DNA of 64,000 bases from the NCBI GenBank assembly GCA_025558095.1, contig JAIVFI010000016.1, positions 62,001-126,000 on the forward strand. The letters are read 5' to 3'. Shown one piece after another: positions 3,435-59,332 of this stretch. Both the position numbers and the translations under genes were made by a program. The stretch comes from Hyaloraphidium curvatum. Taxonomy: Eukaryota; Monoblepharomycota; Hyaloraphidiomycetes; Hyaloraphidiales; Hyaloraphidiaceae. The number at the start of each line of letters is the position of its first letter. Positions within the stretch are counted from its first letter, which is position 1. Under the pieces are notes generated by a model, which saw only the letters and a list, made by a program, of their open reading frames with translations, was not told the origin of the DNA and made no database searches.

Positions 3435-5963
3435 TCACCGCATCGCCTTGCCCTCCCTCAGCGCGTCGAGCTCCTCCTCCGTCGGCACGCCCCCCTCCAG
3501 CACGATGCGCTCAAACACCCTGTGCGCCTGGCGCGTGTATGCCCACGCCTGCCCGCCCAGCCGCAGCGCCCCCAGGCACGCCGCCGTGTCCTCCACCAGC
3601 CGCCTGACGACCTCGCCGTCCAGCCCCGCGGGTTCCGGGCCCGAAGCCAGGCGGCGCAGCACGGCGGCGTGCACCGCCCCCGCGCGCAGGACGGCGACGG
3701 GGATCAGCTGCGGGATCAGCGGCGCCGCGACGGGGTCCGCGAGCACCGCGGCCGCCAGCCGCGAGACGGCCACCGCGTGCGCCGCGCACTCGACGAACCC
3801 CGGCCCGCGCAACCACCCCGCCGCCTCGCCACCGGGATCGTCCGCCAGCACCGCGGCAAAGTCCCCGGGCGAGCGGACGAGCACGTGCAGCGCGTGCAGC
3901 CAGACGAGGTACGCCGCCAGCCGCGGCCAACCGTACGGTCCGTAGTGCGCCGAGCCCAGCGCGCGCACGGCGGCGCCGTCGCCGGCGTCCAGGGCCGCGG
4001 CGAGCTGGGGGGGGAGGTGCCGCTCGGCGTCGGCGAGGGCCGAGAGGAAGGCGGCGCGGCGGGCGAGCGCCTCGGCGAGCACCTCTGGCGCGGCGACCGC
4101 CAGCTCCGCCGCGCGCCCGCACGGCGGGTCCAGCTCGTGCGCCTCCAGCCCGCGCGCGTGCAGCCATGCGCGCAGGGCGGCGTGGCGGGCCATCAGCGCG
4201 CCGACCAGCGACAGGAAAGCCCACCGGCCGAGCTCCCACACGCGGCCAAACGACCCGCGCAGCACGGCCTCGCGCTGCGGGCTCCCCGGGGGCAGGTCGA
4301 TCCAGCCGTGCACGGCGCCGTGGGTGATGCGGCGCCGCGGGTATCCGGCGAAGGAGCGGAGGATCCGGGGGTAGGCGTGCACGGCGCCGGGGGCGAGGGC
4401 AGAGGGGAGCGCCTCGAACAGGGCGTCGTGGCACGGGATCTCCACCGCCGCGATGGTGCGCGGGTCGAACGCCGTTGCCGTCGGGCGCTCGGGCGGGGTT
4501 GCGACGGCCACGCCGGGGGTGCCGGGCGACGGCAGCGGCGCGGGGCTGGGTCCCGAAGGCGAGCTGCGCAGCTCGGCGACCACGATGGCGGCGGCCGTCA
4601 GCCCCGCCACGAGCCGCAGCTTCTCCTCGGCGCGGATCCACGCGGCGGGGAGGTCCCGCTCGTCGTCGGGCCCGCGGGCGCACCACTCTGCCATCCGGGC
4701 CATCGCCGCCACCCTCGCCGACAGCGCCCCCGCCAGCGCCGCGTGGTCCGCGGACCGCCCCAGCGCGCTCAAACCCCACAGGAACGTGAACAGCGCCGTC
4801 AGCGCGTCGAACATGTCCCTGTGGTACCCCGTCATGAGCAGCGCCTGCGGCTCCCCGCCGTACTCGTCCCCCTCGAGCATCTCCCTCCACAGCATCCCCA
4901 GCGCGCCCCCGCCCGAGCTCCCCGCCGCCGGATCCGCGGCCACGAACCACGCCGCGAGCTCCGCCAGCTCGTCCGCGACCCACGCCTCGAGCGCGTCCGT
5001 CTCCTCCTTGCCCATGCCCGTGTGCGCCTCGGGCCTCCCTTCGTCAGCCATCCGCGTGCCCAGCGACGCCCCGGCCCACGCAAGGGAGGCGAGCAGCAGG
5101 GCGTCCATGTGGTGCTCCGCCGCCGCCGCCGGCCTCAGCTCGGGCCGCATCCTCCCCGCGGCCCGCGTGGGCCCGCGGAGCAGGGCGAGCTGCCGCGCCT
5201 GGAAGCGCGCGCGGTACGACGCCCGCGAGGGGTCCTCGCCCGCCGCGACGCGCGAGTCGAGGGTGGCGCGGTGCAGGATGCCGAGCACGCCGACGGAGAG
5301 CGCTGCGTCGAGGGATCGCTGGAGCACCGGCGGCGGGGGGAGCAGGCCGGGGGGCACGGAGGGGTACAGCGCGGCGGCGTAGTCGGGCGGCAGGGAGTGG
5401 AGCGGCGGGAGGGAGGCGGGGTGGTCGGGGAGGCCGGGCACCGCCGCACCGGAGAATTGCGGGTCAAGGGGACCCGAGGGCAGCCGGGCGGGCGGGGTGC
5501 CGCCGAAGGCCGGCTGCGGCGAGCCGCCCGAGGGCGCCCGTGCCACGTTGGGGGGCTGTTCCTGGCCGTACAGTCCGAAAGTGCCGTTCGACGGGCCCGG
5601 AAATCCGTCGCCCGGCAGTTGCCACGGCACTTGTCCCGGCAGCGGTCCCGGCAGCTGCGGCGGCAATTGGCCGGACGAAAGCGGCACGCCCGACGGCGGC
5701 CTCGCCACGCCCGGAGGCGCTCCCGGCGGGCTCCCGTCGCTCCCATAATATCCAAAATCGCCGTTCGACGCCCCCGCCCCGGGAAATAGCCCCGGCTGAC
5801 CGTCGGCCGCGCGCGGCTCGGGGATGTTGCGGCACGGCTGCCCGCGCTGGGCGCACCGCGCGCACGGGTCGCCGCCGTCGCACTTCCTGCGCGATGCCGA
5901 GCACGGCTGGCACGCTGTGCCCCGCGGGACGCGTTTGCGCGGAGGCGGCGGGAGGGAGGCCAT
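3435..5963 (-). CDS. Zn2Cys6 (Gal4-type) fungal transcription factor
   Basis: A single exon of about 842 residues. Near the N-terminus lies a complete binuclear zinc cluster, CxxC-x6-C-x5-C-xx-C-x6-C, running from ACQPCSASRRKCDGG to CARCAQRGQPC, preceded by basic RKRVPRG. This DNA-binding domain is characteristic of fungi. A Pro/Gly/Gln-rich linker of roughly 150 residues follows, then a long alanine-rich helical region as in the middle-homology regions of this class. I chose the ATG at 5963 because it puts the cluster about 20 residues in; an in-frame ATG at 6041 would add 26 residues of less typical composition. It is tail-to-head with the reductase gene at 6076, both on the minus strand. 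Target genes are unknown. Confidence 0.88.
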   Translation of the reverse strand: MASLPPPPRKRVPRGTACQPCSASRRKCDGGDPCARCAQRGQPCRNIPEPRAADGQPGLFPGAGASNGDFGYYGSDGSPPGAPPGVARPPSGVPLSSGQLPPQLPGPLPGQVPWQLPGDGFPGPSNGTFGLYGQEQPPNVARAPSGGSPQPAFGGTPPARLPSGPLDPQFSGAAVPGLPDHPASLPPLHSLPPDYAAALYPSVPPGLLPPPPVLQRSLDAALSVGVLGILHRATLDSRVAAGEDPSRASYRARFQARQLALLRGPTRAAGRMRPELRPAAAAEHHMDALLLASLAWAGASLGTRMADEGRPEAHTGMGKEETDALEAWVADELAELAAWFVAADPAAGSSGGGALGMLWREMLEGDEYGGEPQALLMTGYHRDMFDALTALFTFLWGLSALGRSADHAALAGALSARVAAMARMAEWCARGPDDERDLPAAWIRAEEKLRLVAGLTAAAIVVAELRSSPSGPSPAPLPSPGTPGVAVATPPERPTATAFDPRTIAAVEIPCHDALFEALPSALAPGAVHAYPRILRSFAGYPRRRITHGAVHGWIDLPPGSPQREAVLRGSFGRVWELGRWAFLSLVGALMARHAALRAWLHARGLEAHELDPPCGRAAELAVAAPEVLAEALARRAAFLSALADAERHLPPQLAAALDAGDGAAVRALGSAHYGPYGWPRLAAYLVWLHALHVLVRSPGDFAAVLADDPGGEAAGWLRGPGFVECAAHAVAVSRLAAAVLADPVAAPLIPQLIPVAVLRAGAVHAAVLRRLASGPEPAGLDGEVVRRLVEDTAACLGALRLGGQAWAYTRQAHRVFERIVLEGGVPTEEELDALREGKAMR

Positions 5964-33927: not shown

Positions 33928-34483
33928 TCTGCGTGGAGGACGCCGGGGCGACGGTGCAGTGCTAGGCGGTGCGAGACCCCGCAACAATCCAAAGGTGGTG
34001 TGGCAACCCGCCCGGCCAACCAGCCGCCGCTGGCTGTGTCGTTCTCCGCTCCCGATTCAGAGGTCCGAAATGCCACATTTCGGCATGGCATCAGTTGGAG
34101 TATGCAGAGATGGATAAGATGAGGGTTGCCGGCGGCACCGGAAGGCCAAATCTGCTGAGGGCGCTTCGATGCGGATGAACTGTCGTTGAGCACTCGCCAC
34201 TATCGTGGGCGACCATCGGCTCTCGCTGGCACTGAAGACGCGGGACCCAAGCTCATCTCGATACAGGTGGTGTGGTGTCCGACGCGATGGTCCCAAAAGG
34301 CGACGACGTCGTTTTCCGGTGCCGCCTGAGGCGCCTTCCAGCCACCCGGAGCTTGCACAGCTTGTTGCCGCCCAGCAAAACTTCACCCGCTCTCACAGCC
34401 GGATCGCGGGATTGAAAAAGACTCATCGTGACCACCATGGGGCCCCATTCCTGTGTCGCCAACTCCGCGACTCTTCTCTGGAA
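33928..34483. promoter_or_regulatory. Divergent intergenic region of two secretory-pathway genes
   Basis: The 556 bp between the two divergent starts contain no convincing coding frame. Both promoters must lie here. I see no clear TATA box. Confidence 0.4.
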
Positions 34484-35345
34484 ATGCGCTCAATTGCAGC
34501 CTTTCTCCTGTGCCTCCTCGGCTTCACTGCTCCCACCTGGGCTTCGGCTTCAGCGCCCGACAAACGTGCCCGATCTGTCTCCGAGCGCGCCGTGGCGGAC
34601 GGCTGCCTGGCAGTTTCCGCGTGCTCCGCCGCCCTCAAGATCTTGGAGTCCTGCGCCGATTCGTTTGGAGGCTCCGCTGCCTGGGTGGACCGCTTCACTG
34701 CCACGTCCGTCAATGGCGGCTTGTTTGTTCCGCAAGACATATTGAGCTGCGTCTGCAAAGCCGTGGCGCTCTGGAAGCAATGCTGGGATGCTTGCCGTGA
34801 GTCCGGCACCATCGATCACTCAGACGCCTTCATCTTGGTGATGATCCATTTACGTCTCCCACACAGCCGATGCCGGAAGCACGTACTCCAGGACCCTCTT
34901 CGATGTCTGCCTTACCTCCGATGACCCCGATTCCGACGTTCCCCACCCGATCCCCACCGTCTCCCGGGGACCTTCGACGACCGGGCGGCCGACAACGAGA
35001 CCCACATCCACCGAGCACACCCAGCTACCCCGGCCGACGCAGACTTCCGTGCCGATCGATGGCCAAGTTTCCGAGTGCTCCGCGATCCCGCCGATCGGCA
35101 TCGCTGGCATCGCAATCTCCTCGGCTCTCTTCGGCGCCGTGTTCGGGGCCCTGGCGACCTTCTTTATTACGAAACCTGTCAATCCCGGGCCCAAGCCGAG
35201 CGTCGAAGATGCTCATGAACCGGTCCAGGTGCGCGCAGGCGAAACCAACGTCGCGTACGTGGGAGACCTTGAGGTGGGCTACACGGGCGAAGACGAGATA
35301 AAGCAGGCCGAGATCATCAAAGTGGATTCAGATGCATCTATGTAA
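34484..35345 (+). CDS. Type I single-pass membrane protein, Cys-rich ectodomain, 2 exons
   Basis: ATG 34484 begins with signal peptide RSIAAFLLCLLGFTAPTWAS. The ectodomain has about eight cysteines (GCLAVSACSAALKILESC, CVCKAVALWKQCWDAC). Intron 34797-34866 (GTGAGT...CAG) joins DAC to PDAGSTYSRTLFDVC. A Pro/Thr-rich stalk follows. The membrane segment is IAGIAISSALFGAVFGALAT, followed by a short acidic cytosolic tail ending DSDASM. No family is recognised. It ends only 84 bp before the 3' end of the retrotransposon. Confidence 0.68.
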
Positions 35346-35415
35346 ATCTTAATCGGTTCGAAGATCATAAGTGGACCGGTTGCAAAAGGCGGAGGTAGCA
35401 GGGCCGCGACGGCGC

Positions 35416-35428
35416 CGGCCGCCGCCGC
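35416..35428. repeat. Candidate target-site duplication, copy at element 3' end
   Basis: CGGCCGCCGCCGC directly abuts the 3' end of the retrotransposon (that end is set independently by comparison with the second copy). The same 13 bases occur at 42377-42389. The motif is low-complexity, so chance is not excluded. Confidence 0.6.
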
Positions 35429-35475
35429 GTGTGTAATGAGGAGCTAGCAATCCCACCGTACACTTAGCAATCCCC

Positions 35476-38400
35476 CTACGCCCCAAGAATCAGCTCCTCA
35501 TCTACATTCAAACCAAATGCGACCGGCGCGGGGGCCGGAGCGTTGACAGCGGCGGCTTCGGTGCACAGCTGAAGCCAGTGTTGGAGTTGGGCCGCGACGC
35601 CAAGAGCCCAGGCCACCGCGATCCGTTCGCGGAAGCGCCGCACAAAACGAGAGTAAAGGCCATCGAGGTCCACGGGCTGCCCATCGCGGCCGACGATCCC
35701 GGGATACTGGATGCGCCCCATCTCCGAGGAGAAGCGCGAGAAAGTGGCAGAGACAGCGCTGTACGAATCAAAAGCAAGCACGATCAGAGGGTAGAAGTTG
35801 GCGTTGAAGACGAAACGGGAGTAGTCCTTCCTGGCGGCCTCGACCCGCCGTTCGACTGCGTGGCCCGGGACCGAGAAGACCAGGCCCGTGTGCAAATGGG
35901 CCATAGAGGTGAGGGTCTTGATCTCGAGCAACCACCGTTTCCGGGTTTCGCGGTGCGTGATGAGAACGTCGCCAAGGCGGCCAGCATCCGCAGGCGTGGG
36001 CGGGGTGACAGTCTCGTAGCCATGCGCAAGGAGGTTTGGCGGCATGGGGTGCACGCGGAGGAGCGGGATGGAGCGAAGCGCCGCGCGGATGGCCGCGCAA
36101 ATGTCGTCGTGACCAGGACTGAAGAGATCCCGGCCATAGCAGCCCGAGAACGCGTGCTCCCCCGTCAGCGACATGGCCGATCGCTTGCAGCCCCGCCGGC
36201 AGGGCAAGGAAAGACCAGGGTAGTCGGCCTCGTGCAGGAGCGGGAGGCAAAGCCGGAAGCGTACAAGTAAGCGGAAAAAGTTGTTGCGAATGTGGTTGGC
36301 AAGCAGCGCGGGAGAGGCAGTCAGGAAAGCCGACAGGCCGTCCTGCGCCTGGACGAGCCGCTTGCGGCGCTCCAGACCAGCGGAAGTGGTGGGTTGCAAG
36401 GCAATCAGAGCCGCGAGGCGGCGCTGGTCCTCGAGACGCGTAAGGTCGCTCTGCAGGCCGTGCCAAACCGGCTGGGCGAAGAAACTGGCGTCCGCAGGGA
36501 GCGTACGGCGGGCGGGCGCGGCGCCCACCGGTTGCCCAGCACGCGCAGCCTCGGCGTACGCTGCGGCCGTGTCATCCTCGACACGCTCAAAGGCGGGGCG
36601 GAGGGCCTCGATGACGGGAACCAGTTCCCGCACGTGCTCCACGCCCACACCCCGGGCCGAGGTTCGAAGACCAAGCATGGCGTCCAAGGGGCCCGCCGTG
36701 AGGTTGAGTGAAGACAGGTAAGCCGCCGAGGCCACCTTCTCCGATGACAGAAGCCCCATCCCCGAGTAGTGCAGACCCAAGAATACCTGCTCCCGCACAG
36801 TCCGACCCTCCACCGACAGCGGATCCAGATCCTCGGCCCGATCTCCCAGCAAGCGCAAGAAGGTGGTGAAAAGCGCGTTGTCAAGACGTCGAGCAAAGGG
36901 TTGGGTAACCGAGGGGGGGAGAATGCGGAGCCAAAACGAGAAGAGCTGGGTCACACAGAGACGGAGGAGGGAGTACAGGCCCTGGAGGGAGGGGATGTCG
37001 GCCGGCATGGCGTAGCCGAGCGCAGCGCGCTCGATTTCATCGAGAAGAGCGGCAATGGAGTCGATCTTGGCCGCGAGGAACGACTCCACATAGGCAGGGG
37101 TGCCGACCGGGGCACCTACCACCTTGAGGCCGCACGAGCGAGCGAAGTCAGGCGAGCCCGGGGCCGACGCCGTGGCATGCACCTCGGGGTCGGCCTCGTG
37201 AGGCGGGAAGCCAGCGACGCGGATGTTGTGGGCCGCACCGGCCGCGCGCACCCGCTCCAGCACGGCCGGGTTCGTCGAGAGCGAAAGCAGGTAGCTCTTG
37301 TCCGGGCGGTGGGTCATGCCGAGGGAAGCAAGGCCGTCACGCACCTCTCCCAGGACGGCCATGACCGAGTCCAGCGGCCCGACCACGGTGAGGTCGTCGA
37401 GGTACCCAAGGATGAGGCAGTCGGGGTGCCCAGAGCGGATGGGCCGCAGCATGCGGCTCATGGCGCAGGAGAAGATGGCAGACGACAGCGGGTCGCCCTG
37501 GATGTTGCCCTCGTACATGGTGATCCGGAAAAGGAGCTCCGCCGAGCGCCGGTCGCGGAAGTAGGCGTGGGAAGGGCGCGAGTAAACGAGGTTGTAGTAC
37601 GGGATAAGCTGAGGCACCTGGCGGACCACCTCGCGCGCGAAGAGGCGGCGCAGCGTATTGAAGGCGTTCCTAGAGTCGACCTTCATGACGACGTGGTCGG
37701 GGAAGGCCGCCAGCCACGCGTTCACCGCGTGGGCAGTCGCCTCCGCGCCCCCGTCCACCCCGTGACCCAGGTCCTCCTGCTGTTGGAGCTTCCTCAGAAG
37801 AGCCTTGTGCCGCACGGCCAGGTACGAGCCCGCGAGCCGCGTGATGCCCTCCATAATGCCAATCGGCCGGAGCCCCCCCTCCGGCTTGAGCAGAGGGACG
37901 AGGATTTGATCCGTGAGGAGCGGCCGGAGCATGGGGGTGTCGAGTCGGCCAGTGCACACGCCGTGCACCATGGCCGCCAGCGGGCGGAGCTTCCGTCGCG
38001 TCGCGTCGTTCTCGCAGTTGTGCACGATGAAAAGTTTGGCCATGCTGAAACCCGACATGCCGGCCCCCACGCCGTCCTTCTTCCGGCGCAACCGGGCCCA
38101 GATGTCCTCCAGGAAAGCCGCGTCCGTGTAGGCAGGGCAGGGCGCGGGCGCGTTGGGGGGCAGAGACAGCCGACACAGCGGCTCTCCCTCCCGCGGCCCC
38201 GGGTACAGCTCCTCCAGTTCCGCCTGCAGCGTGGGCGTGAAGCCAGCCGGAACGGCCTCCCCCGAGAGCGCCGCGGACGCAGCACCAGGAGCGCCCTTCA
38301 AGGCGGCAAGCACGATGGCCTTGAAGAGCTGGTAGTTGAGCGGCCGCAGCCCGTCCCGCCGCGCGCCCCGGTTGACCTGACGGGCGGCGAAGTAGTTCTG

Positions 38401-39387
38401 CTCGTACATGTAGTCCCCCGACATGACGTAGCCGCCAAACGCAAGGTAGGCGGTGAGAGTGCGGTGCAGGTCGGTTTCCGGTGCCGCCGGGTCCTCGTAG
38501 GCCCGTTGGAAAGACTCGCTGGCCCGGAAGGCGAGCGTGCTCCAGGTGGTGGTCCGGTAGCGGTGCTTCAGCGGCTCCGGCGGCGGCGCCCCCGCGCCCC
38601 CGCCCGGCGGCGGATCAGGCCCGGGACCCCCGGGTGGACCACCGTCGCCTGGGTCGCCCGGATCACCGCCGTTGCCGTGCCCGCCAGCCGCGGCGTTGCC
38701 GCCCGGCGCGCCGTCGCCGCCTGGGGGATCACCGCCGTCCGGGGCGGCACGCGCCGCCGCCGCCGCCGCCGCCAGCGCCGCCCGTTGCGCCTGGACGTCC
38801 TGCGGGGCGTCGGCCGCAACCCGGGCGGCCGCAAGGGCCGCCATCGGCGCGGGCGCGGGTGGCGAAGCACGGGGAGATGCCGACGATGCCGCCGGTGACG
38901 CCGGTCCCTCCGCGCGTCCCGTGGCAGCCGCCCGCTCGGCACGCACGCGGTCGAGGAACTCGACGAGATCGGGTGGAAGCGAAGCTAAAGAGACGCCGAG
39001 TGGCGGGTTAGCTGCGTCCGGGTTGCACGAGGTGTGCTGTCCAGAAACACCGGCACCAGAGGCGTTTGCGGCGTAGGGACGCCGGCAACCCCCGCACCGC
39101 GCGAGCCCCATGGCGCGCAACGCATCGGCAGACAGGCGCTGCATCGCCAACCAGTGCTCCGGGCTCCGTGTGACCCGAAGATGACCGTCCCGTTTGTTTT
39201 TGTTTGGAGTTGGCTGGAAGCGGCAACCATCAACCGGGCACGCATGGAGGCCGGGTTCAGCAGGCGCCTCCGCCATCGGCACATCGCCGTCGATGCAAGA
39301 TTGGTGATGAAGAGATAGAGCTCCGATGTTGGCGAAAGCTGCCGCGCAGCGGTGGCAGCTGTAAGGCAGGAGCGGCGTGCGGCTCAT
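35476..39387 (-). CDS. Retrotransposon ORF2: reverse transcriptase plus restriction-like endonuclease
   Basis: 1,303 residues. Three N-terminal zinc motifs: CHRCAAAFANIG...HH...C (residues ~11-31), CPVDGC...H, and CGGCRRPY...HTSC. A Pro/Gly/Ala-rich linker follows to about residue 290. The reverse transcriptase has VMKVDSRNAFNTLRRLFARE (catalytic Asp near residue 570), EGNIQGDPLSSAIFS, and the active site GYLDDLTV (near 662). The C-terminus has a CRRGC...H...C knuckle (~1062-1083), then the PD-(D/E)xK-like motif RLGDVLI...LLEIKT (~1137-1155). This layout is that of early-branching REL-type LINEs (R2/CRE/R4 group), which do target-primed reverse transcription. The start ATG overlaps the stop of the preceding ORF as ATGA. 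The clade is not assigned. Confidence 0.92.
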   Translation of the reverse strand: MSRTPLLPYSCHRCAAAFANIGALSLHHQSCIDGDVPMAEAPAEPGLHACPVDGCRFQPTPNKNKRDGHLRVTRSPEHWLAMQRLSADALRAMGLARCGGCRRPYAANASGAGVSGQHTSCNPDAANPPLGVSLASLPPDLVEFLDRVRAERAAATGRAEGPASPAASSASPRASPPAPAPMAALAAARVAADAPQDVQAQRAALAAAAAAARAAPDGGDPPGGDGAPGGNAAAGGHGNGGDPGDPGDGGPPGGPGPDPPPGGGAGAPPPEPLKHRYRTTTWSTLAFRASESFQRAYEDPAAPETDLHRTLTAYLAFGGYVMSGDYMYEQNYFAARQVNRGARRDGLRPLNYQLFKAIVLAALKGAPGAASAALSGEAVPAGFTPTLQAELEELYPGPREGEPLCRLSLPPNAPAPCPAYTDAAFLEDIWARLRRKKDGVGAGMSGFSMAKLFIVHNCENDATRRKLRPLAAMVHGVCTGRLDTPMLRPLLTDQILVPLLKPEGGLRPIGIMEGITRLAGSYLAVRHKALLRKLQQQEDLGHGVDGGAEATAHAVNAWLAAFPDHVVMKVDSRNAFNTLRRLFAREVVRQVPQLIPYYNLVYSRPSHAYFRDRRSAELLFRITMYEGNIQGDPLSSAIFSCAMSRMLRPIRSGHPDCLILGYLDDLTVVGPLDSVMAVLGEVRDGLASLGMTHRPDKSYLLSLSTNPAVLERVRAAGAAHNIRVAGFPPHEADPEVHATASAPGSPDFARSCGLKVVGAPVGTPAYVESFLAAKIDSIAALLDEIERAALGYAMPADIPSLQGLYSLLRLCVTQLFSFWLRILPPSVTQPFARRLDNALFTTFLRLLGDRAEDLDPLSVEGRTVREQVFLGLHYSGMGLLSSEKVASAAYLSSLNLTAGPLDAMLGLRTSARGVGVEHVRELVPVIEALRPAFERVEDDTAAAYAEAARAGQPVGAAPARRTLPADASFFAQPVWHGLQSDLTRLEDQRRLAALIALQPTTSAGLERRKRLVQAQDGLSAFLTASPALLANHIRNNFFRLLVRFRLCLPLLHEADYPGLSLPCRRGCKRSAMSLTGEHAFSGCYGRDLFSPGHDDICAAIRAALRSIPLLRVHPMPPNLLAHGYETVTPPTPADAGRLGDVLITHRETRKRWLLEIKTLTSMAHLHTGLVFSVPGHAVERRVEAARKDYSRFVFNANFYPLIVLAFDSYSAVSATFSRFSSEMGRIQYPGIVGRDGQPVDLDGLYSRFVRRFRERIAVAWALGVAAQLQHWLQLCTEAAAVNAPAPAPVAFGLNVDEELILGA

Positions 39388-40235
39388 GGCGAATACGGTG
39401 GCGGCGGTGATGCCGGTGTCCCGCCGCCAGGATCAGCTACCGCGGACGGTGCTTTGTCCGACGAGATATCCCAATCGTCGAGCGCATGTGTCCGCATCCA
39501 AACCTCCTGTGACTCGGTCAGGTCGCCCCCCGCCCTGTGCCAGGCCGCAAGCGCCGACCACGCGTCACCGATAGCATCACGGCCGCCGTCATCGAGGAGC
39601 TCGGAACCTGGCCATTCGAGGTGCGCCGGCGAACCGGGCTCCGTGTGAGCATACCAAGGAGGCAAGGTGCGCGTCGGAGTGGATACTTCCGAGGAGCTCT
39701 GCCCCCCCCCGGCCGTTGGTGCCGGCGGCGTGCCGGGGGTTGTGCGGGGCGGCGCAGGCGGCAGCTGCAAGCTCGGCACGGCGGTTGCAGCTGGGGTTTC
39801 CCACGGAGGATGGCCTGGGTGCGCCGGGAGCATGGAAGCGGCCGAAGCCGGGGCATCAGCGATCAAGATCGGCGATGACGAGGAGGGAGATACTTCCGAG
39901 CGTGCCGCCCCTTTCCCCCCCGCTGGTGCCGGCAAGCGGGAGGAGCCGCGGGGCGGCGTGGGCAGAGTGTGACCCTCGGCCAAGCTAGGCACGGCATTTG
40001 GCCGAGGGGCCCCGGGGGACGCGGGGTCAATGTCGGAAGTCTCCCCTGCTGCCGCGAACGGCCTCGGAACTCGGTGAGACGTTGTAGATAGTGGTAGTTG
40101 GCGTACCGGTGAAGACTGCAAAACAGCAAAAGATGGAGGGGCTGACCGCGCCCGGGAGGTATCCGGACGAGCTCGGCGCCGAGAAGAGCAGCCCACTACT
40201 CGGCGTTGCCACTTGCTTGGTGGTGTTTTAGGCAT
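39384..40235 (-). CDS. Retrotransposon middle ORF, Pro/Ser-rich, function unknown
   Basis: 283 residues, mostly low-complexity Pro/Ala/Ser, with an ordered-looking C-terminal part (DAIGDAWSALAAWHRAGGDL, WMRTHALDDWDIS) and ending PPPPYSP. It starts inside the end of ORF1 (shared ATGCCTAA) and its TGA stop overlaps the ORF2 start (ATGA), so it is joined to both neighbours. The WHRAGGDLTESQE region might bind a partner; PPPPY resembles a WW-domain ligand or a late-domain-like motif, which is only a resemblance. I know no homologue. Confidence 0.65.
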   Translation of the reverse strand: MPKTPPSKWQRRVVGCSSRRRARPDTSRARSAPPSFAVLQSSPVRQLPLSTTSHRVPRPFAAAGETSDIDPASPGAPRPNAVPSLAEGHTLPTPPRGSSRLPAPAGGKGAARSEVSPSSSSPILIADAPASAASMLPAHPGHPPWETPAATAVPSLQLPPAPPRTTPGTPPAPTAGGGQSSSEVSTPTRTLPPWYAHTEPGSPAHLEWPGSELLDDGGRDAIGDAWSALAAWHRAGGDLTESQEVWMRTHALDDWDISSDKAPSAVADPGGGTPASPPPPYSP

Positions 40236-42366
40236 TCAAGGACGGTGAGCCAGGAGCCGGCAGCAGGGATCCGGTTGACATGGAGGTGGCCTTGGCCTGG
40301 GGGGAGCCGGGCTTGCGAGCGGCCGCCTTGGCCTTCCGTTCCGCTTTGGCGGATTTGACGTCGATTTGCTGATACGGCTTGGCAACCTTGTCCGGGTTTG
40401 TCCCTGCCACATCCTCCACGGGACGGCCCTTGCCTGCGTGCTTGGGGCCTGGGGCCATCGTAGGATCACCAACCGCGGATGCCCCAGCGGCCTCATCGGC
40501 CGTGTGCATGTCTTCGCTTGGTGCCTCCGAGTTCGAACCATCGCCCTCAGCAGAGGCTTCGGAGGCAGCGTCGTTTCCACCCGAGGCCTCAGAGCCGGTG
40601 GCATCCTCCTCCATCGCAGATTCCGTGCCCTCCATTGCGGGAGCAGCAAGCTCCAGATCCTCCAGCGCGGTATTGGCTGCAACCTGCTGTGCAGCACTGC
40701 TGATGGCGTTCTCAGCGGCCAGCTGGTCGGCACCACCCATGTCCTCGTCCCCATCCTTGTCAGCCGGCTCCAAAATGGGAAGACCATGGAAATCCATCTT
40801 TTCGGCGGCGTCAGACTCCCCCCAATCGACCGAAGCACCGGCACTACCACCACCAAGTGCCGAAAACCGGTTGTGGGACGCCTTGGCCACTGGCTGGGCA
40901 AGAGCTGGGGGCGCAGAGCCTGCGCGCTTGCCGGACGGCCCAGCTGTAAGCCACTCGTCGGCCGCAGGGGCGGTGGGGGAAGCCAGATGCGGAGGAACGA
41001 CCTCTTCCCTCAGGGGGGGCAGCCGTGGGGTCGTGGCGGGCTCCACCGTTGGGGGAGAGAGCCGTACGTTGGCCGGGTTGTGAATGCAGTCCGCCTCGTG
41101 TGCACGGCGTGCTTGCGGGCTGGCAAAGGCGCCGGGATTCATGCGGTTGAGACCGTCTGGGCAGTAAGCACAGTTGGTGCACGTGGCATCGTCACCGACG
41201 TGGCCGCCCGTGCGCTTGCAGTGGCCGCACTGTCCGTTGCTACTGTCATAGCGGACAGCTGGGCGAAGGAGCTTGTGCTGGAGGAGCGTCCCCCACGAGT
41301 CAAGGAAGCAGTACGAGGGTGGGCCAATGCGTGCTGCGCGGTCAAAGAAGGCATCAACCCCGCACTGCGAGACATCGAAAGTGACCCGCCAGAAGGCGTT
41401 GCTGTCGGTGCCCGAGATGGGAGCCGCTTCAATGACTTGGCAAGGGGCCCCATAGTGGTTCTGGAAAGTCGCGTAGAGGCGGGCCCACCAGTCCGGGCAC
41501 TCGTGCACCGAACCAGGGACGATCATGGGCCCGATCTTGAGCTCGGCGTGCGTGTCCTTGAAGACAGGGTGGATGCGCAGCCGACGCGTCGGTCCGTTTG
41601 GGAACTTGACCTCCAGCACCCCCTGCTCCACCAAGGCGTTGATAGCGTCTGCCCCGTCGACAGCACCAACAACACAGAAGAGGTCCAGTCGCGAGTAACG
41701 CGGGTTGTAGCCTCGCGTCTCGGTCGTGAAGACGGTGGTGGGGAAGGTCGCCTTCGCCACGGCTTCGGCGACGACGCGCCGTCGGTCCTTTGGCACACCG
41801 TTGAGGTCGATGAGGCAGTGGGGGACAGGCCCAATGAAGGCCGGCGTGTAGCCCCGACCGTTGGCGTGCGGTTGCACCCGATCGATGAGCTTGGCGTAGT
41901 TGGTGGGCGCCGAGAAAGGCATGGCAGAAGCCAGATGCTCCGCCATCGCGCCGTCCGTGACACGAACAATCGGGCGGTCGGGCGAGGTGCGCGACGTTGC
42001 TGCGGCGAAAGAGCGAGACCCCAGGCGCGTGGCGGGGGCGGTTGCTTTCGGGAGACGATTGTGCTGAGCCGGCTCCTCCCGGGCGCCGCCGTTGGCGGAC
42101 GCGGGGCGGATTTCAGTGGTCGATTCAGCAGCGTCCTCCTTAGAACCTGTCAGCTGAGCCGTAGCACCAGCGGGGGCCGGCGCGGGCTCCTCTGCCGCGC
42201 CAGGGAGGCGAGGAGAGGCAGCGACGCCGGGAGCGTGGGAAGAGTGGACGGGATTCGCAAGCGCCTCCGAGGAGGCCGCGGCGAGCGCAGGGGAGACCTT
42301 GCCATCAGGCAGGACCACGGGAGCGGCCGCATCATTGGGCCCCTGCCCTGTGTCAGGGGGGTCCAT
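40228..42366 (-). CDS. Retrotransposon ORF1: zinc-knuckle nucleic-acid-binding protein
   Basis: 712 residues. A disordered N-terminus of about 130 residues is followed by an ordered domain (~150-370) with basic and aromatic residues such as RGYTPAFIGPVPHCLIDLNG and FKDTHAELKIGPMIV. Next comes a Cys/His knuckle cluster, CGHCKRTGGHVGDDATCTNC (near residues 380-400). The C-terminal third is acidic, Ala/Ser/Glu-rich, ending in a basic KSAKAERKAKAAARK patch. ORF1 proteins of this kind package element RNA. The ATG lies at 42366, about 10 bp from the inferred 5' end of the element. The TAA stop overlaps the next ORF start. Confidence 0.85.
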   Translation of the reverse strand: MDPPDTGQGPNDAAAPVVLPDGKVSPALAAASSEALANPVHSSHAPGVAASPRLPGAAEEPAPAPAGATAQLTGSKEDAAESTTEIRPASANGGAREEPAQHNRLPKATAPATRLGSRSFAAATSRTSPDRPIVRVTDGAMAEHLASAMPFSAPTNYAKLIDRVQPHANGRGYTPAFIGPVPHCLIDLNGVPKDRRRVVAEAVAKATFPTTVFTTETRGYNPRYSRLDLFCVVGAVDGADAINALVEQGVLEVKFPNGPTRRLRIHPVFKDTHAELKIGPMIVPGSVHECPDWWARLYATFQNHYGAPCQVIEAAPISGTDSNAFWRVTFDVSQCGVDAFFDRAARIGPPSYCFLDSWGTLLQHKLLRPAVRYDSSNGQCGHCKRTGGHVGDDATCTNCAYCPDGLNRMNPGAFASPQARRAHEADCIHNPANVRLSPPTVEPATTPRLPPLREEVVPPHLASPTAPAADEWLTAGPSGKRAGSAPPALAQPVAKASHNRFSALGGGSAGASVDWGESDAAEKMDFHGLPILEPADKDGDEDMGGADQLAAENAISSAAQQVAANTALEDLELAAPAMEGTESAMEEDATGSEASGGNDAASEASAEGDGSNSEAPSEDMHTADEAAGASAVGDPTMAPGPKHAGKGRPVEDVAGTNPDKVAKPYQQIDVKSAKAERKAKAAARKPGSPQAKATSMSTGSLLPAPGSPSLNA

Positions 42367-42376
42367 ACTCTCGGAG

Positions 42377-42389
42377 CGGCCGCCGCCGC
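42377..42389. repeat. Candidate target-site duplication, copy at element 5' end
   Basis: CGGCCGCCGCCGC, identical to 35416-35428, lies 10 bp beyond the ORF1 start codon. If real, it fixes the 5' border of the element at 42376. Confidence 0.55.
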
Positions 42390-42450
42390 CGGCCGCTTCT
42401 CAGAAACGCGGGAGACTTTTCCCGAAACACACGAGGCGACACCGTTGGGG

Positions 42451-43670
42451 ATGGCTGGCCCTCCCTCTTCCTCGGATCATGTCTTCGGCATCGAGGGCGC
42501 CGGGCACCGTGGGTCTTGCCGGGATCCGGGCGCGATTCGGCGCGTCAACGATCTCTCCGAGCAGCCTACGCCGTTCGTGATTCCCTCCCCTTCTCCGCCG
42601 AACGCGAGCTCGTATTCTTCTTCCTCGACGTGAACTCCACCCACGACCTCTTTGCCGGCCTGGTCAACCGCGCCTTCGAGCTGCAGAACCCTGTGTTTAC
42701 GCTTGCGGACGGGAGGCAATCCACTGCCGCGCCCGCGCTGAACAGGGATGGCCGGAGCGGGGCCCCCATGTTCGTCGGGAGGGACGTGAAGGTACAGCTG
42801 CACCCCGACGTCGTCGCCGCCGGAGGCGACCGAATGGTCCCCGGGAACGGGGACCGGGTCTGGGGGCGTGCGTACATGGTGGAAGCCAGCGCCGAGCGAC
42901 CCTATTTCCGCACCGAGTTTGAGCTGAGGATCATCGCCCGTTGGGATCCCGAGACGCGCCGGGAGATCGACCTCACCGATGGCAGGTCGACTTGGGGCTC
43001 TGGACGGGAACGGAGACCAGGGCTTCCGTTCGCTGCTGGCTGGGTCGGCAACGTGGGTTCTACGGTCTAGCTCGAGGGCCGGATATCTGACAAATTTGCT
43101 CAGATGATCGTCACCCGCGACCGTTCCACCGGACGCTTTCGAGTTGCCCCTCGGGACATGCTCCCCGCCGCCAACTGGGCCTCCCGCGGAGCGATCCACA
43201 AATCCATCATTGCCGACGACCCCGCCTACTCGTGGGTCTCCCGTTCCGATGGGTTCGTCGAGGCGGACGTCGCCGCGGCCGAACCGTGGACGGCCTTGCC
43301 GAGCTTCAAATGGGAGACGCGCCGCGTGGACAACGACAGCTTGGGCCACACGACGGCGTCGCGGTACGCTCTTTCCCTCCTTGTCGCAAAAGACCCTCGC
43401 TGATTCTTGATGTCGATCAGGCGCGTGCTTCCATTCTTCGAGGCTTCCTACAGGAATCTACCCGACCACCGCATTGCCGGCATTTTCGTCGAGTATCGGA
43501 CCGAGCTCCTGCCCCACAAGGCATGCACCGTGATCGGCGTCCGGTCGGGAGATACGGTCAGGTACCTCTTGGATGATGGGGCCGGCCCCGGGCGCCTGAA
43601 CCGGGCTGCGGTCTGGATCGTGGACAAGGCGCAGATGAGGCTCAAGGTTGCAGGCGGGGGACCTGCATAG
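42451..43670 (+). CDS. Conserved-looking hypothetical protein, 4 exons
   Basis: Exons 42451-42508, 42565-43052, 43104-43363 and 43421-43670 join in frame: MAGPPSSSDHVFGIEGAGH, then YAVRDSLPFSAERELVFFFL, onward to SRRVLPFFEASYRNLPDHRI and the end KVAGGGPA. The protein of about 351 residues looks globular, mixed alpha/beta, without signal peptide or membrane segment. I do not recognise the family. The retrotransposon ends about 75 bp upstream of the start codon in opposite orientation, so most of the original promoter may now be separated or replaced. The second and third donor sites were chosen to keep frame; alternatives exist a few codons away. Confidence 0.6.
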
Positions 43671-43832
43671 ATCTCTGTAGACTATCTCTCTAGTGTCTAG
43701 ACATGAACTAGATGAAGAGACAGGTAGACAGGTACGGCCGATCGCGAGATTTGGCGACGCACCGTCCCCCGCACAGCAAACACGAGCCTCGCTCGCAGAT
43801 ATCAGACCAGTAGCACCGCCAACGCCGGCAAT

Positions 43833-45000
43833 ATGTCGTCATCTGAGCCGGAGCCGACCGTTCCTGAGTGCTGCCGGACCGGCTACGCGTGGCAGGGCGC
43901 GCCGACGGGCTCTGTCGGGAAGGTCGCCGGACTGGACTGCTGTGCGTTTTCGCGTCTCGGAGGCCGCGGCGGGCGTTGACGGGCCCTTTCTCCCTCTCTT
44001 GGAACGCATCGTGTTTCTTTACTTGCCTGGGATTTGTGCCGACGTATTCCGTCGTCGGTCCTATCTCCTGCTCGCGTTCGTGACCTGGAATCCGTGCCGA
44101 CGTATGCCGTCGCCGCACAGACATGGCCAAAGCCGGGGAGAGCAAGGCGGACAAGGCCATCGTCATAGTGCACGACATCTTTGGGTGGACGTTTCCGAAC
44201 GCGCGGCTCATCGCCGACGCGATTGCAAAGGAAGGCTACGACGTCTACCTCCCCGATTTCTTCAACGGGACGGTCGTGGACCCCGTGGGTTGCTCCGTCG
44301 TGAGCCAAAATGCCGCACTGAACGCTCGTTGGCTTCCAGGACGCGCTCTCGGCGATCGACGGCAAATTCGAGGTGAAAGCCAAATGCCGCCGACGTGCGT
44401 CATTCTCTCACCGCGCTCGCTTCCAGGGCATTTGGACCTCCGTGACCCGCGGCGTCAAACTGATGCTCAACGCCCCCAAGGCTATCTACGCCATCGCGGG
44501 CCACGGCAAGTCTGCCGCCGTCGGACTGGACCAGGTCCTCGACGAGCTGCGCGGCAAGTACAGCAAGATCGGGGCGGCTGGCTACTGCTTCGGCGGGCGG
44601 CAGCTCATCATGCTGGCCCAGCGGGACACGGCGGGGTCCAAGTGCGACGCTTACATGGTCGCACACCCCGGGGAGGTCATCAAGGTGCCCCAGGACCTGC
44701 AATTTCCGAAGCCGGTGCTCTATGGTTCGTTGAAGGTCGTTCCGTTCGCCTGCACAACCCCTGACCTCCGACTTGATCGCAGTGCTCGCCGAGAAGGAGT
44801 TCTTCTCGCCCTACGACCCAAAGCAGATAGCTTCTGTCCTCGAAGGCTACAACAAGGACGGCAAGGTCGCCCTTTCCCGGTACTGGCCCGGGACCAACCA
44901 CGGGTTCGCGACGCGGGTGAACGAGGCTATTCCGGAGCTGAAGCAGGCCAGGGACGAGGCGCTGGAGGCCACGATCGGGTTCTTCAAATCGAACCTGTAG
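43833..45000 (+). CDS. Dienelactone hydrolase-family protein, 5 exons
   Basis: An alpha/beta hydrolase, cytosolic, of the DLH/AIM2 type. Exon 1 (43833-43941) encodes the family N-terminus, PECCRTGYAWQGAPTGSVGK. A long intron (43942-44120) leads to CYMAKAGESKADKAIVIVHD, then IFGWTFPNARLIADAIAKEG. Introns 44285-44339, 44373-44426 and 44725-44782 are typical. The nucleophile elbow is GYCFGGRQ, with Cys as in dienelactone hydrolase. The catalytic His is in GTNHGFATR. The third residue, an Asp, should lie near KEFFSPYDPK. Length is about 274 residues, normal for the family. The true substrate is unknown; fungal members often act on lactones or small esters. Confidence 0.87.
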
Positions 45001-52240: not shown

Positions 52241-52412
52241 TTACGAAACTCATGGTGGCGCGGCGCGTTGAGATTGAGCTGATCGGATTGAGATCCTGGG
52301 AGGTCACAGGGCGTCAGCCAGGTTACTTGAGACCCGCGCCGCCCCGCAATCCCGCAACGTCAAACTCCAATTGTCGGCAGCAGAACCGCAAGCAGGCACC
52401 TCCGGCGTAACG

Positions 52413-55400
52413 ATGCGTGAGTGTCCGCCGCCGCACCGCGGCCGCCCCGCGCTGACGCCCTCCGCAGCCTTCGCTCTGTTCCCGCGGCCCGACATTCTCG
52501 TTGTCGCCGTCGTCCAGCGGGGCGGCGACACGTACACAATCGCAGAGTGGCGCCGGCCCGGCGCTCCGGCGTTCGCCGACATCGACGCCGCCGTCGCGAC
52601 CTCGTGGCGCCCCGCTGCGAGCGGCATCTCGCGCATGGTCTTTGGCGGCCACAGCTTCGACTCGCTCCACGCCGCGCTGCCGCCCGCCGAAGATGGCCAG
52701 CCCCAAGTGCACGTCATGGGCATCCGTCGTGAAGGCATCGAGGTCACCATGGCGTACACGGCGACGTTCTGGCGGCTCCACACCGTGCCGCTGCCCGCCG
52801 TGCCCGCGGCCATCCTGCTGATGGCCGAGGAGACCGCCTCGGCTTCGCCCTCGTCTCTGGGGGCCAACTTCTACCAAGTCATGATCGGCAACTTCGTTGG
52901 GGCCTTCAGGGTCGGCAGCGAGGTCCTGGATCTCGCCCGCGCCCTGAACCCGCCGCGGCGGGACGCCCTGCGCGTGCACGCCCGCGCCATCGGCATCGTC
53001 GACGAGGGCCACCCCAGGCCCGACGACCTGCGGCCGATCCTGGTGCCGAACCAAGCCGGCCTCGAGGCCCTGCGCGGCATGGCCGAGGAGAACGCCTCGG
53101 CCGACCGGCCCGTGCACCCGCAGGCCATCATCGGCAGCGTGCGCAGGGGCAAGACCACGCTCAACAACATCATGCTCCGCATTGCTAACGAGGTCAGCAC
53201 CGACAGGCTCGGCACCACCGAGTACGGCTACTACGACTCGGCGTCGGTGCCCTTTTTCTTCCTCGCCTCCAACGCCGGGAGGTCCGTCACCAGGGGCGTC
53301 CAGGCCTACGCGATCGAGACCTTGAACAGGACCGTGCTCCTCCTGGACTTCGAGGGGTTCGACAGCGAGGCTCCTCACGCCGAGATCGGGGAGCCCGGCC
53401 CGTCGTCCGCCGCGGGCCCCTCCAACGCGCCCGCGCCGACCTGGAACCACGCCAACCGCCGCGAGTTCGACACCCGCCTCTACGCCCTCGCCATCGCCAT
53501 CGCACCCACCGTCGTCTTCAACGCCTCGGGGATCGTGTCGGCCTCGCTCACGCTGGACAGCATCGCGGCTCTGCACGGGTCGGCCCTAAACCGGCGCATC
53601 GTGCCGCCCGGGGGCCGCGGCTCGTCGTTCCTGATGATGGTGATGCAGAACCACCCCGACGTCGGGCACGACTCGAGGCAGGACTTTGGCGCCTGGCTGG
53701 ACCGCAACGGCCGCAGGGCCGTCTTCGCCACCACCTTTGGCGACTACGCCGTGGTCAACGTGCCCGGGCCCGAGATCGACCCCGCCCTCGAGGTGTCCCG
53801 CATGCCGGCGGAGCGGCTGCGCAGGAACGGTTACCTGGGCCAGATCATGCGGGCCTGGGAAACCGCAAGGGAGAACGGGCAGCCCGTGCCGGGCGACCTG
53901 GTCAGGCTGATCGAGGTGGGGTCCCGCGTACGTGTTTGTGGGGTACCGCGGCTCATCCAATGTCGCACGCAGGACTCGACGGCGGCCATCAACGCCACCG
54001 CAAACCTCAACTCGTACGGGCAGGACGACTACCAGACCACGCAGCAGATCCGGAGCCACGCCGCGGCGACGGTCGCGGCGCACCGCGCCGCCCTGGAGGC
54101 CAGGCGCCAGGCCGTCGATGCCACGGCCGACGTCTCGCAGCTCGAGACGGCGCAGGAGCTCAGCGCCTTCCTGCACACGGAGCGGCACCGCGCGATCGGG
54201 AACTTCCGCGCCGTCCCCAACCTCTCGGATCAGCACAGGGCCATGCACGGCAACGCCATCGAGCAGGAAGAGCGCCTCATGTGCGAGCAGGTCGACGCCG
54301 CGGCGGACCTCCTCCTGGCCACCTACGCAGCCGCCTCGCGCCGCCACCTGGCCGCCCTCGTCGACGGGATCCGCAACGCCGTGCCGCCCGCAGCCGACTA
54401 CGTGCCCAGCGCCGCGAACCCGACCGCGGATCCCGCCCGGTTCCGCCAGTGGATCGACGAGCGGCTGCGGAGCTTCGACGGCACGGCAAGGGGGCCCAAC
54501 GACGCCGTCACCGCGGCCAGGGAGCGGCTCGCCAGCGACCTCGGGTCGTTCCTGCGGCTGTACCAGCAGCAGGCGGAGGATTTCCGCCGGGCCGAGCGGC
54601 GCGCGCGGGAGCAGGAGGAGCGGACGCGCCAGGAGCAGGAGCGCATGAGGGCCGAGCGCGAGCGCATGGAGGGGGACCTCAGGGCGCAGGCAGAGCTGCG
54701 GCAGCGGCAGATGGAAGAGCAGGCCCGGCAGGCCGCGGAGGAGCTCGGCCGGGAGAGGGAGGCGGCGGCAGCTCAGCTCCGCGAGGTCAATGCCAGGCAC
54801 ATGCAGGACCTTCGGGATACTCAGGCCGAGATGAGGTCCCAGGCGCAGCAGCAGCTCGAGGAAACCGTGGCCCCGCTCAACCGACGCATCCAGGAGCTTT
54901 CCGCCGACGTCGCACGGGAGACTGCGCGGGCCAACGACCTGCAGCGCCAGGCTGACGAGCTCAGGAACAGGGGCGGATGCTTCGCCTCGTCGTGCACGGC
55001 CGAGCTCGAGGATGGCCGCCGCATCGGCGTGGCCGAACTGCGGGTCGGGGACCACGTGCGCGTTGCGCGCGGGGGATTCGAGCCCGTCGTTGGCTTCTAC
55101 GACGCCGATACCGACGCGGAGCCGTGCTTCCTCGAGGTTGCTTTCGGGCTGCAGGACGGCCAGTCGGGCATGATCACGCTCACTCACAACCACATGGTCA
55201 TCGCCAGCAACGGCAGCGGCCCGGCCTTGCCCATGCAGGCGCACAAGCTGATCCCCGGCACCAGCTTCCTCATGCTCGCGGGGAGCATGGACCCTGTTCC
55301 CGTGGTCTCGGTGCGCGCCTCAGATGTCCGCGGAGCCTACTCCCCCGCCACCCCCGGCGGCACCATTGCCGTCTCGGACCGCGGCCCGGCGGTCGTGGCC

Positions 55401-55631
55401 TCCTGCTACGCTAAGCCCTCGACGTTCAGCAAGCTGGCCTGGGACGACGCCGCGGTGGATGCGGCACTGCACGGGGCGTCGTGGTTGCTGCGCATGTGGT
55501 GGGCCGCATCCGGGTTGGCGGGCTGGCCGTTGGCGGGAGGTGCGGCGGGAACTGGCAAGGCTGGGCCGGGAGTTCGGGCCCTCAAGGCCGCAGCAGCGGC
55601 AGCGTTCTCCTGGATTGGGCTGCTGGACTGA
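52413..55631 (+). CDS. GBP-like GTPase, coiled coil and Hedgehog-type Hint domain fusion
   Basis: About 1,070 residues from ATG 52413. A ~230-residue N-terminal domain precedes the P-loop IIGSVRRGKTTLNNIML (near 240), switch-like SVTRGVQAY, and G3 motif LLLDFEGFD (near 312), the order seen in guanylate-binding/atlastin GTPases. Helices and a long Arg/Glu/Gln coiled coil (~720-850) follow. From GGCFASSCTAELEDG (Cys near 855) the sequence is a Hint domain: ELRVGDHVRV, the TxxH block in ITLTHNHMVI, and GAYSPATPGGTI...ASCYA, which is diagnostic of Hedgehog rather than intein Hints. A hydrophobic tail (LLRMWWAASGLAGWPLAGG, AAAAFSWIGLLD) sits where Hedgehog has its sterol-recognition region. A 48-nt in-frame intron is likely at about 53929-53980 (GTACGT...CGCAG). 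I recall a GTPase-Hint protein, GIN1, from a Glomus fungus with similar order. Confidence 0.88.
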   Translation: MRECPPPHRGRPALTPSAAFALFPRPDILVVAVVQRGGDTYTIAEWRRPGAPAFADIDAAVATSWRPAASGISRMVFGGHSFDSLHAALPPAEDGQPQVHVMGIRREGIEVTMAYTATFWRLHTVPLPAVPAAILLMAEETASASPSSLGANFYQVMIGNFVGAFRVGSEVLDLARALNPPRRDALRVHARAIGIVDEGHPRPDDLRPILVPNQAGLEALRGMAEENASADRPVHPQAIIGSVRRGKTTLNNIMLRIANEVSTDRLGTTEYGYYDSASVPFFFLASNAGRSVTRGVQAYAIETLNRTVLLLDFEGFDSEAPHAEIGEPGPSSAAGPSNAPAPTWNHANRREFDTRLYALAIAIAPTVVFNASGIVSASLTLDSIAALHGSALNRRIVPPGGRGSSFLMMVMQNHPDVGHDSRQDFGAWLDRNGRRAVFATTFGDYAVVNVPGPEIDPALEVSRMPAERLRRNGYLGQIMRAWETARENGQPVPGDLVRLIEVGSRVRVCGVPRLIQCRTQDSTAAINATANLNSYGQDDYQTTQQIRSHAAATVAAHRAALEARRQAVDATADVSQLETAQELSAFLHTERHRAIGNFRAVPNLSDQHRAMHGNAIEQEERLMCEQVDAAADLLLATYAAASRRHLAALVDGIRNAVPPAADYVPSAANPTADPARFRQWIDERLRSFDGTARGPNDAVTAARERLASDLGSFLRLYQQQAEDFRRAERRAREQEERTRQEQERMRAERERMEGDLRAQAELRQRQMEEQARQAAEELGREREAAAAQLREVNARHMQDLRDTQAEMRSQAQQQLEETVAPLNRRIQELSADVARETARANDLQRQADELRNRGGCFASSCTAELEDGRRIGVAELRVGDHVRVARGGFEPVVGFYDADTDAEPCFLEVAFGLQDGQSGMITLTHNHMVIASNGSGPALPMQAHKLIPGTSFLMLAGSMDPVPVVSVRASDVRGAYSPATPGGTIAVSDRGPAVVASCYAKPSTFSKLAWDDAAVDAALHGASWLLRMWWAASGLAGWPLAGGAAGTGKAGPGVRALKAAAAAAFSWIGLLD

Positions 55632-58354: not shown

Positions 58355-58432
58355 CCTTTGAACGTTGTGTGTAATGAGGAGCTAGCAATCCCACCTTTGA
58401 ACGTTGTGTGTAATGAGGAGCTAGCAATCCCA
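58355..58432. repeat. Two tandem 39-bp units at the 3' border of the truncated retrotransposon
   Basis: Units 58355-58393 and 58394-58432 are identical. Each contains 12 bp that are absent at the border of the full-length copy (CCTTTGAACGTT, presumed target flank) plus the last 27 bp of the element. Thus both element end and host flank were duplicated together. Confidence 0.85.
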
Positions 58433-59332
58433 CCGTACACTTAGAAATCCCCCTACGCCCCAAGAATCAGCTCCTCATCTACATTCAAACCAAAAGCGAC
58501 CGGCGCGGGGGCCGGAGCGTTGACAGCGGCGGCTTCGGTGCACAGCTGAAGCCAGTGTTGGAGTTGGGCCGCGACGCCAAGAGCCCAGGCCACCGCGATC
58601 CGTTCGCGGAAGCGCCGCACAAAACGAGAGTAAAGGCCATCGAGGTCCACGGGCTGCCCATCGCGGCCGACGATCCCGGGATACTGGATGCGCCCCATCT
58701 CCGAGGAGAAGCGCGAGAAAGTGGCAGAGACAGCGCTGTACGAATCAAAAGCAAGCACGATCAGAGGGTAGAAGTTGGCGTTGAAGACGAAACGGGAGTA
58801 GTCCTTCCTGGCGGCCTCGACCCGCCGTTCGACTGCGTGGCCCGGGACCGAGAAGACCAGGCCCGTGTGCAAATGGGCCATAGAGGTGAGGGTCTTGATC
58901 TCGAGCAACCACCGTTTCCGGGTTTCGCGGTGCGTGATGAGAACGTCGCCAAGGCGGCCAGCATCCGCAGGCGTGGGCGGGGTGACAGTCTCGTAGCCAT
59001 GCGCAAGGAGGTTTGGCGGCATGGGGTGCACGCGGAGGAGCGGGATGGAGCGAAGCGCCGCGCGGATGGCCGCGCAAATGTCGTCGTGACCAGGACTGAA
59101 GAGATCCCGGCCATAGCAGCCCGAGAACGCGTGCTCCCCGTCAGCGACATGGCCGATCGCTTGCAGCCCCGCCGGCAGGGCAAGGAAAGACCAGGGTAGT
59201 CGGCCTCGTGCAGGAGCAGGAGGCAAAGCCGGAAGCGTACAAGTAAGCGGAAAAAGTTTTTGCGAATGTGGTTGGCAAGCAGCGCGGGAGAGGCAGTCAG
59301 GAAAGCCGACAGGCCGTCCTGCGCCTGGACGA
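58367..59332 (-). mobile_element. 5'-truncated copy of the same non-LTR retrotransposon
   Basis: This ~0.96-kb copy corresponds to 35429-36354 of the full element plus the 3' tandem duplication. It retains only the C-terminal endonuclease part of ORF2 and the 3' UTR. The 5' junction is at 59332, where match to the full copy stops (CTGGACGA, then host sequence). One C is missing at about 59136 compared with 36155-36159, shifting the frame just upstream of the endonuclease knuckle, so it cannot encode a functional product. Only a few other substitutions were seen. It lies between ATG 58306 (minus) and ATG 59377 (plus), inside their shared promoter. Confidence 0.93.

Follow-up and report, generated by a model that had tools for sequence, protein, structure and literature searches.

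A restriction-like endonuclease LINE of Hyaloraphidium curvatum with three open reading frames joined by stop/start overlaps that may be read by termination-reinitiation

Introduction

Eukaryotes rarely make several proteins from one RNA. How this might be done is the question raised by a retrotransposon of Hyaloraphidium curvatum (Monoblepharomycota), found on the minus strand of a 64,000-nucleotide (nt) stretch of contig JAIVFI010000016.1 (positions 62,001 to 126,000; hereafter, the window) of this GC-rich genome. The element is an autonomous, recently active, coding long interspersed element (LINE) of the restriction-like endonuclease (REL) type, a variant of a known group, in which ORF1, a middle open reading frame (ORF) and ORF2 overlap stop to start at two junctions. 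From its sequence, the element is likely to use coupled termination-reinitiation for translation and CTKAGA-directed, target-primed insertion for mobility, with a gag-like ORF1 protein and an accessory middle-ORF protein.

The three ORFs and both overlaps lie exactly where the original prediction had placed them. Its span of 35476..42366 holds for the coding part, but the whole element is longer (35429-42366, plus leader and target duplications). The main features, all minus strand, are:

35429..42366, minus: full-length REL-type LINE, ORF1 ATG to 3' terminus (ends ...CTCCTCATTACACAC); same limits in other copies
40228..42366, minus: ORF1, 712 amino acids (aa), Ala- and Pro-rich; ORF listing and copy comparison
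40228..40235, minus: ORF1 stop/middle-ORF start overlap ATGCCTAA, 8 nt; sequence and copy comparison
39384..40235, minus: middle ORF, 283 aa, 18% Pro, 14% Ala, 13% Ser; ORF listing and copy comparison
39384..39387, minus: middle-ORF stop/ORF2 start overlap ATGA, 4 nt; copy comparison
35476..39387, minus: ORF2, 1303 aa, with zinc finger, reverse transcriptase (RT), linker and REL endonuclease; profiles, patterns and fold

Stop/start junctions

An AUG is located at the upstream stop of both junctions, which favours reinitiation. With 26 and 36 AUGs ahead of the two downstream starts, leaky scanning is disfavoured; the middle frame is not readable from further upstream because a TGA directly precedes its ATG. 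The junctions were compared in 21 copies, namely the window copy and 20 loci. ATGCCTAA is kept in 15 of 15 spanning copies (the region is missing from L007, L009, L010, L014, L023 and L024) and all 19 copies that reach ATGA keep it (L023 being partial there and L024 missing the region). The overlaps are thus kept among genome copies, although the near identity of these copies makes this a weak test. Fused or separate ORFs in other copies had been named as evidence to the contrary; fusion is seen in none of the spanning copies, while a diverged family has two ORFs that still meet at ATGA.

This diverged family is represented by locus L039 on contig C29, a second REL element. Its ORF2-like protein shows 28% identity across 598 residues, and the element has a target duplication of 11 nt and a 3' part of 42 nt. 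Its ORF2 start overlaps the upstream ORF as ATGA, and it has no middle ORF; thus, the stop-start junction appears to predate the middle ORF. Counted from its first ATG, the upstream ORF has 279 aa; no stop interrupts its frame as far as the insertion's 5' end, so the ORF is probably 5'-truncated; comparison with ORF1 did not show homology. The C29 junction is better evidence than the alike copies within the window family. A genome-wide search with the C29 RT gave 42 matches at E 1e-5, including the window family (29 rows, 33-36% identical), a number of copies and fragments of the C29 family, and less similar rows at 29-34% (e.g., C2:643637).

Domains of the encoded proteins

The domain and motif assignments, all minus strand, are:

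39295..39357, minus: N-terminal zinc-finger-like motif, ORF2 residues 11-31; pattern
37234..37887, minus: reverse transcriptase domain (RVT_1), ORF2 residues 501-718; Pfam E 7e-10
35917..36201, minus: CCHC knuckle and REL motif, ORF2 residues 1063-1157; pattern, with a structural alignment to R2 that spans the region
41161..41229, minus: Cys-rich (zinc-knuckle-like) motif, ORF1 residues 380-402; pattern match only

Judged from its sequence, ORF2 encodes a reverse transcriptase resembling that of R2, with a REL at the C terminus. The best profile matches are to R2 (E 1e-14), and fold comparison agrees with a LINE/R2-type RT. The C-terminal motif reads C-X3-C-X10-H-X4-C .. GHD .. E .. LGD-X14-E-I-K, in which GHD and LGD occupy the places of RHD/N and R/KPD in the published REL pattern (the search pattern was widened to allow GHD and GD). 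The CCHC pattern is found in 32 of 44 rows of the homologue alignment, query included. A zinc-finger-like motif comparable to that of ORF2 occurs near the N terminus of protein P0006 and at residue 56 of the C29 ORF2. The C29 C terminus, read by eye, is C-PLG-C .. HAFTC .. RHN .. D .. DVT. These profile matches, motif patterns and fold comparison bear out the assignment of the window element to the REL-type non-LTR (non-long terminal repeat) retrotransposons.

REL elements were expected to have one ORF, and the available text of PMC3636483 (which gives this as characteristic) and PMC5678591 describes REL clades accordingly; exceptions with more than one ORF are, however, reported in parts of PMC12278014 and PMC3118788. 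Because of these reports, a single ORF is treated as usual rather than defining, and the three ORFs found here are compatible with REL-group membership. The single 28S rDNA site typical of the R2 clade proper does not fit the insertions, which lie at scattered CTKAGA sites with mostly different flanks (L019 and L020 share one), although the 28S gene itself was not located.

ORF1 is probably a gag-like RNA-binding partner, as suggested, though weakly, by its sequence. It has no Pfam domain at E 0.1, a single match in a sequence search of the PDB (E 0.42) and, for residues 90-420, no homologue at E 0.001. The middle ORF is Pro-rich as first described, had no match in a Pfam search, and probably encodes an added, disordered accessory protein. 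The frame is open over 283 codons in 14 of 15 copies spanning its start (L008 is broken), whereas the other five frames of the window copy hold 3-8 stops each.

Translation of the three ORFs

A short-leadered RNA, with an estimated 5-33 nt before the first AUG, would be translated from ORF1. On reaching the ORF1 stop, ribosomes would resume at the middle-ORF AUG that overlaps it; after terminating again at the end of the middle ORF, they would resume at the ORF2 AUG, which overlaps that second stop. The ORF2 protein would then recognise the CTKAGA site, nick the DNA and copy the RNA by target-primed reverse transcription from a fixed 3' end. Such insertion would yield the target duplications (~6-13 nt) and 5'-truncated copies that are observed in the family.

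Several observations weigh against this proposal. Stop/start overlaps are not by themselves overwhelming evidence: a crude composition model gives an overlap by chance in ~7% of cases at TAA, ~21% at TGA and ~1.5% for both together, and the single C29 ATGA junction carries the same ~21%. That junction rests on one copy, since the other C29-family loci compared begin inside ORF2, and the C29 protein gave no match to the strict REL pattern. Within the window family, copies are mostly ~99% identical and have had little time for loss; therefore, the junction counts test intactness and not deep conservation. Six RNA folds covering both junctions gave z of -0.8 to +1.6, with no unusual structure, whereas the silkworm LINE SART1 needs a downstream structure for reinitiation. 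The structural Z of ORF2 does not separate R2 from LINE-1. For the middle ORF, non-synonymous changes are the least depleted of the three ORFs, and the ratio is 0.83 for the six changes common to at least two copies.

Of the other routes to three proteins, independent mRNAs from internal promoters or splicing would place each ORF first and leave the overlaps to reflect compactness only. The element is compact, with its short leader and 47-nt 3' region, and some LINEs use internal promoters; the junction-spanning copies are, however, colinear and unspliced, although genomic copies cannot exclude subgenomic mRNAs, and this explanation is considered unlikely. Programmed frameshifting is a poorer prospect. 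A +1 shift at GCC-UAA-A would fuse ORF1 to the middle ORF and a -1 shift would be needed before ORF2, whose reading frame holds no stop in the 45 nt before its ATG. Room for the +1 shift is limited to AAT GCC TAA by the TGA that closes the middle frame just ahead; there, skipping the T of TAA reaches the middle frame, a further point against reinitiation; such a skip at a stop resembles 'shifty stop' sites. Nonetheless, neither overlap window holds a slippery heptamer, two different shifts would be required, and both stops, like the stop in the C29 family, coincide exactly with an ATG. Overlaps arising by chance, with no coupling and with ORF2 made otherwise (e.g., by internal ribosome entry), are compatible with the composition model and with the lack of unusual structure in the junction folds; yet this is very improbable, as a start overlaps a stop at each of three junctions, found in two diverged families.

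A separate doubt concerns the middle ORF, which may be a by-product with no functional protein, left when a once longer ORF1 tail was split by a change of frame. Its Ala/Pro-rich composition resembles ORF1, the C29 copy lacks it and its selection signal is the weakest of the three. Against this stand the frame kept open over its full length while the other five are broken, and the modest depletion of non-synonymous changes; the by-product explanation is rated as unlikely, and coupled termination-reinitiation through a coding middle ORF is preferred.

Family copies and selection

A DNA search placed the middle-ORF region at 27 places, and at least 40 3' ends of the family were found (40 of 68 candidates scored). 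Of 29 RT-containing loci chosen, 20 were compared in full, and C29, from the remaining nine, proved to be a different family; end pieces of C7, C27, C38 and C41 were also compared, plus other copies on C5, C12 and C39. Identity to the window copy is 96.5-99.9%, mostly ~99%, and by this measure the family is young and recently mobile. Six of 21 copies (window, L012, L013, L018, L020 and L021) have each of the three ORFs at full length, and in L013 and L021 the ORF1 frame continues into the flanking DNA upstream. Comparison between copies shows a depletion of non-synonymous changes in ORF1 (29/58, p=0.0003), the middle ORF (26/47, p=0.018) and ORF2 (84/159, p=5e-7), with sites that are non-independent; thus, all three ORFs appear to be coding.

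Irregular insertions are also noted. The 3' end is duplicated in L015, and in the tandem insertions at L019/L012 and L008 the second copy begins ~25-29 nt behind the 3' end of the first. At a separate 3'-end fragment (window 58355-58434), a 39-nt sequence with the family's 3' terminus occurs twice in tandem. In L039 (reverse complement 4000-4040), ~20 nt of the window-family 3' terminus lie reversed between copies of an 11-nt direct repeat, GCGGTGACGCC, seen by eye; from its sequence, this looks like an extremely 5'-truncated insertion.

Target site, leader and 3' end

The ends of the window copy, all minus strand, are delimited as follows:

42398..42403, minus: target motif CTGAGA, 8 nt upstream of the duplication; flank inspection
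42377..42389, minus: upstream target-site duplication, 13 nt, GCGGCGGCGGCCG; flank comparison
42367..42376, minus: 10-nt leader CTCCGAGAGT, target duplication to ORF1 ATG; last 8 nt common to L026/L027
35436..35501, minus: possible 3'-terminal stem, AUGAGGAGCU (ORF2 end, 35492-35501) with AGCUCCUCAU (3' end, 35436-35445); minimum-energy fold
35416..35428, minus: downstream copy of the target-site duplication; flank comparison

The marks of target-primed insertion (target duplication, 5' truncation, a fixed 3' end and no LTRs) are all present. The window element has a 3' non-coding part of 47 nt that lacks a poly(A) tail, and no long terminal direct repeats occur among 20 of the 41 repeat families listed for 34000-44000 (longest, 45 nt). 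The 3'-terminal stem is a perfect 10 bp with z -1.7, equalled by 12 of 200 shuffles, and is a possible RT recognition hairpin.

Of the 20 upstream flanks (100 nt each), 14 contain CTGAGA, compared to 3 of 1078 window control blocks (2/539 and 1/539 per strand). The rows without it are L018, L025, L030, L008 and the L012 junction (two rows), of which L008 and L012 lie directly behind another copy. The nine truncated copies include five with CTGAGA upstream (L007, L010, L022, L023 and L024), two with CTTAGA (L006 and L014) and two with neither (L009 and L015). The combined motif CTKAGA lies 7-8 nt before the duplication in 13 of 14 delimited insertions (CTGAGA 11, CTTAGA 2; the exception is L018), where L019 and L020 share a flank and are not independent sites. 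The delimited duplications are 6-13 nt, with edges uncertain by ~1 nt. Since the insertions are at scattered CTKAGA sites, this REL LINE appears sequence-directed and not tied to one gene.

At the 5' end, 20 rows (19 distinct junctions, as L012 and the second L019 row coincide) were compared, and they all have sequence in common only from the ORF1 ATG onward. The nine delimited full-length insertions have 5-33 nt between duplication and ATG: L021, 5; window, 10; L019 and L032, 13 each; L013, 17; L030, 18; L018, 22; L029, 28; and L020, 33. L017 (no normal duplication) and L012 (behind another copy) are not delimited at this end. ATG-proximal leader nucleotides are shared by L026/L027 (16), L029/L030 (14), L019/L032 (13) and the window with L026/L027 (8); at least 5 nt are common to 23 of 190 pairs, one of which is the duplicate row, and sharing is confined to close copies. 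By contrast, five of the nine truncated copies are delimited (L006, L007, L010, L022 and L024) and join the duplication with 0-1 extra nt; thus, the extra bases of full-length copies are most simply RNA leader and not untemplated addition. The best duplication match of truncated L014 would leave 14 nt, and the remaining truncated copies lack a clear duplication. The leaders suggest that transcription starts slightly upstream of the inserted DNA, such that a daughter would inherit a short leader partly from the flank of its parent. No conserved 5' untranslated region able to hold a promoter was seen among the 5' rows compared, and the promoter may lie within ORF1 or upstream.

Other reverse transcriptases and neighbouring sequence

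Related RT proteins P0003 and P0005, from public contigs, are listed with ubiquitin carboxyl-terminal hydrolase domains; in P0003 this domain is C-terminal to the RT (residues 799-1205). RVT_1 tandem arrays occur at C37:305268-314743, C12:482837-490950 and C36:187941-191658, with steps of ~2011, 2028 and 1239 nt. On the plus strand of the window (52281-55631), a 1116-aa frame carries a C-terminal Hint module (E 3e-18), which is unusual outside animals and some protists.

Comparison with known systems

No three-ORF REL LINE was noticed in a literature search confined to open-licence papers. Tentatively, the window element may be the first LINE on record to couple three cistrons, and of REL type; its operon-like RNA would hold an older ATGA before ORF2 and a middle gene inserted into the coupled chain, with a short leader foreign to the element, captured from parent-flanking DNA and replaced over generations. 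The young window family offers two junctions and intact copies, and the diverged relative a third junction, so that reinitiation can be tested directly and compared; the element could reveal how a eukaryote obtains several proteins from a single RNA. The shortness of the CTKAGA-N8 site allows one to ask how a REL LINE picks DNA outside repeated genes, and leader turnover bears on promoter location in such elements.

SART1, an apurinic/apyrimidinic endonuclease (APE)-type LINE of the silkworm, differs from the window element in its type of endonuclease. The two are alike in the stop/start overlap, at which SART1 is documented to reinitiate given the downstream RNA structure, as described in the accessible parts of PMC5972666 and PMC2881922; the window element has two junctions to the one of SART1. 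The same text describes an unconventional reinitiation proposed for LINE-1, in which the ORFs are separated by a spacer.

The CRE elements of trypanosomatids (SLACS, CZAR) and EhLINE1 share the REL endonuclease and reports of more than one ORF. Two ORFs were once thought present in T. cruzi CRE elements, with a single ORF verified in most species (PMC12278014), and ORF1 and ORF2 are spoken of for Entamoeba LINEs, with a restriction-enzyme-like endonuclease (PMC3118788); a middle ORF or stop/start overlap is not mentioned in the sections available. The fungal CRE-like elements FoTeR, MoTeR and Cnl1 have the REL motif, with a RAD variant also in P0006, but target telomeres and are described with an RT-encoding ORF only, as far as the text available of PMC12857005 extends.

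The R2-group REL LINEs (R2, CRE, NeSL, R4 and Hero) resemble the window element in that a single protein carries a zinc finger at the N terminus, an RT, a linker with a CCHC knuckle and a REL at the C terminus, and in sequence-directed insertion; the profile and fold matches of the window element are to R2. By contrast, the window element has two extra upstream ORFs joined by stop/start overlaps, and its insertions are spread over many CTKAGA sites, not confined to a single repeated gene.

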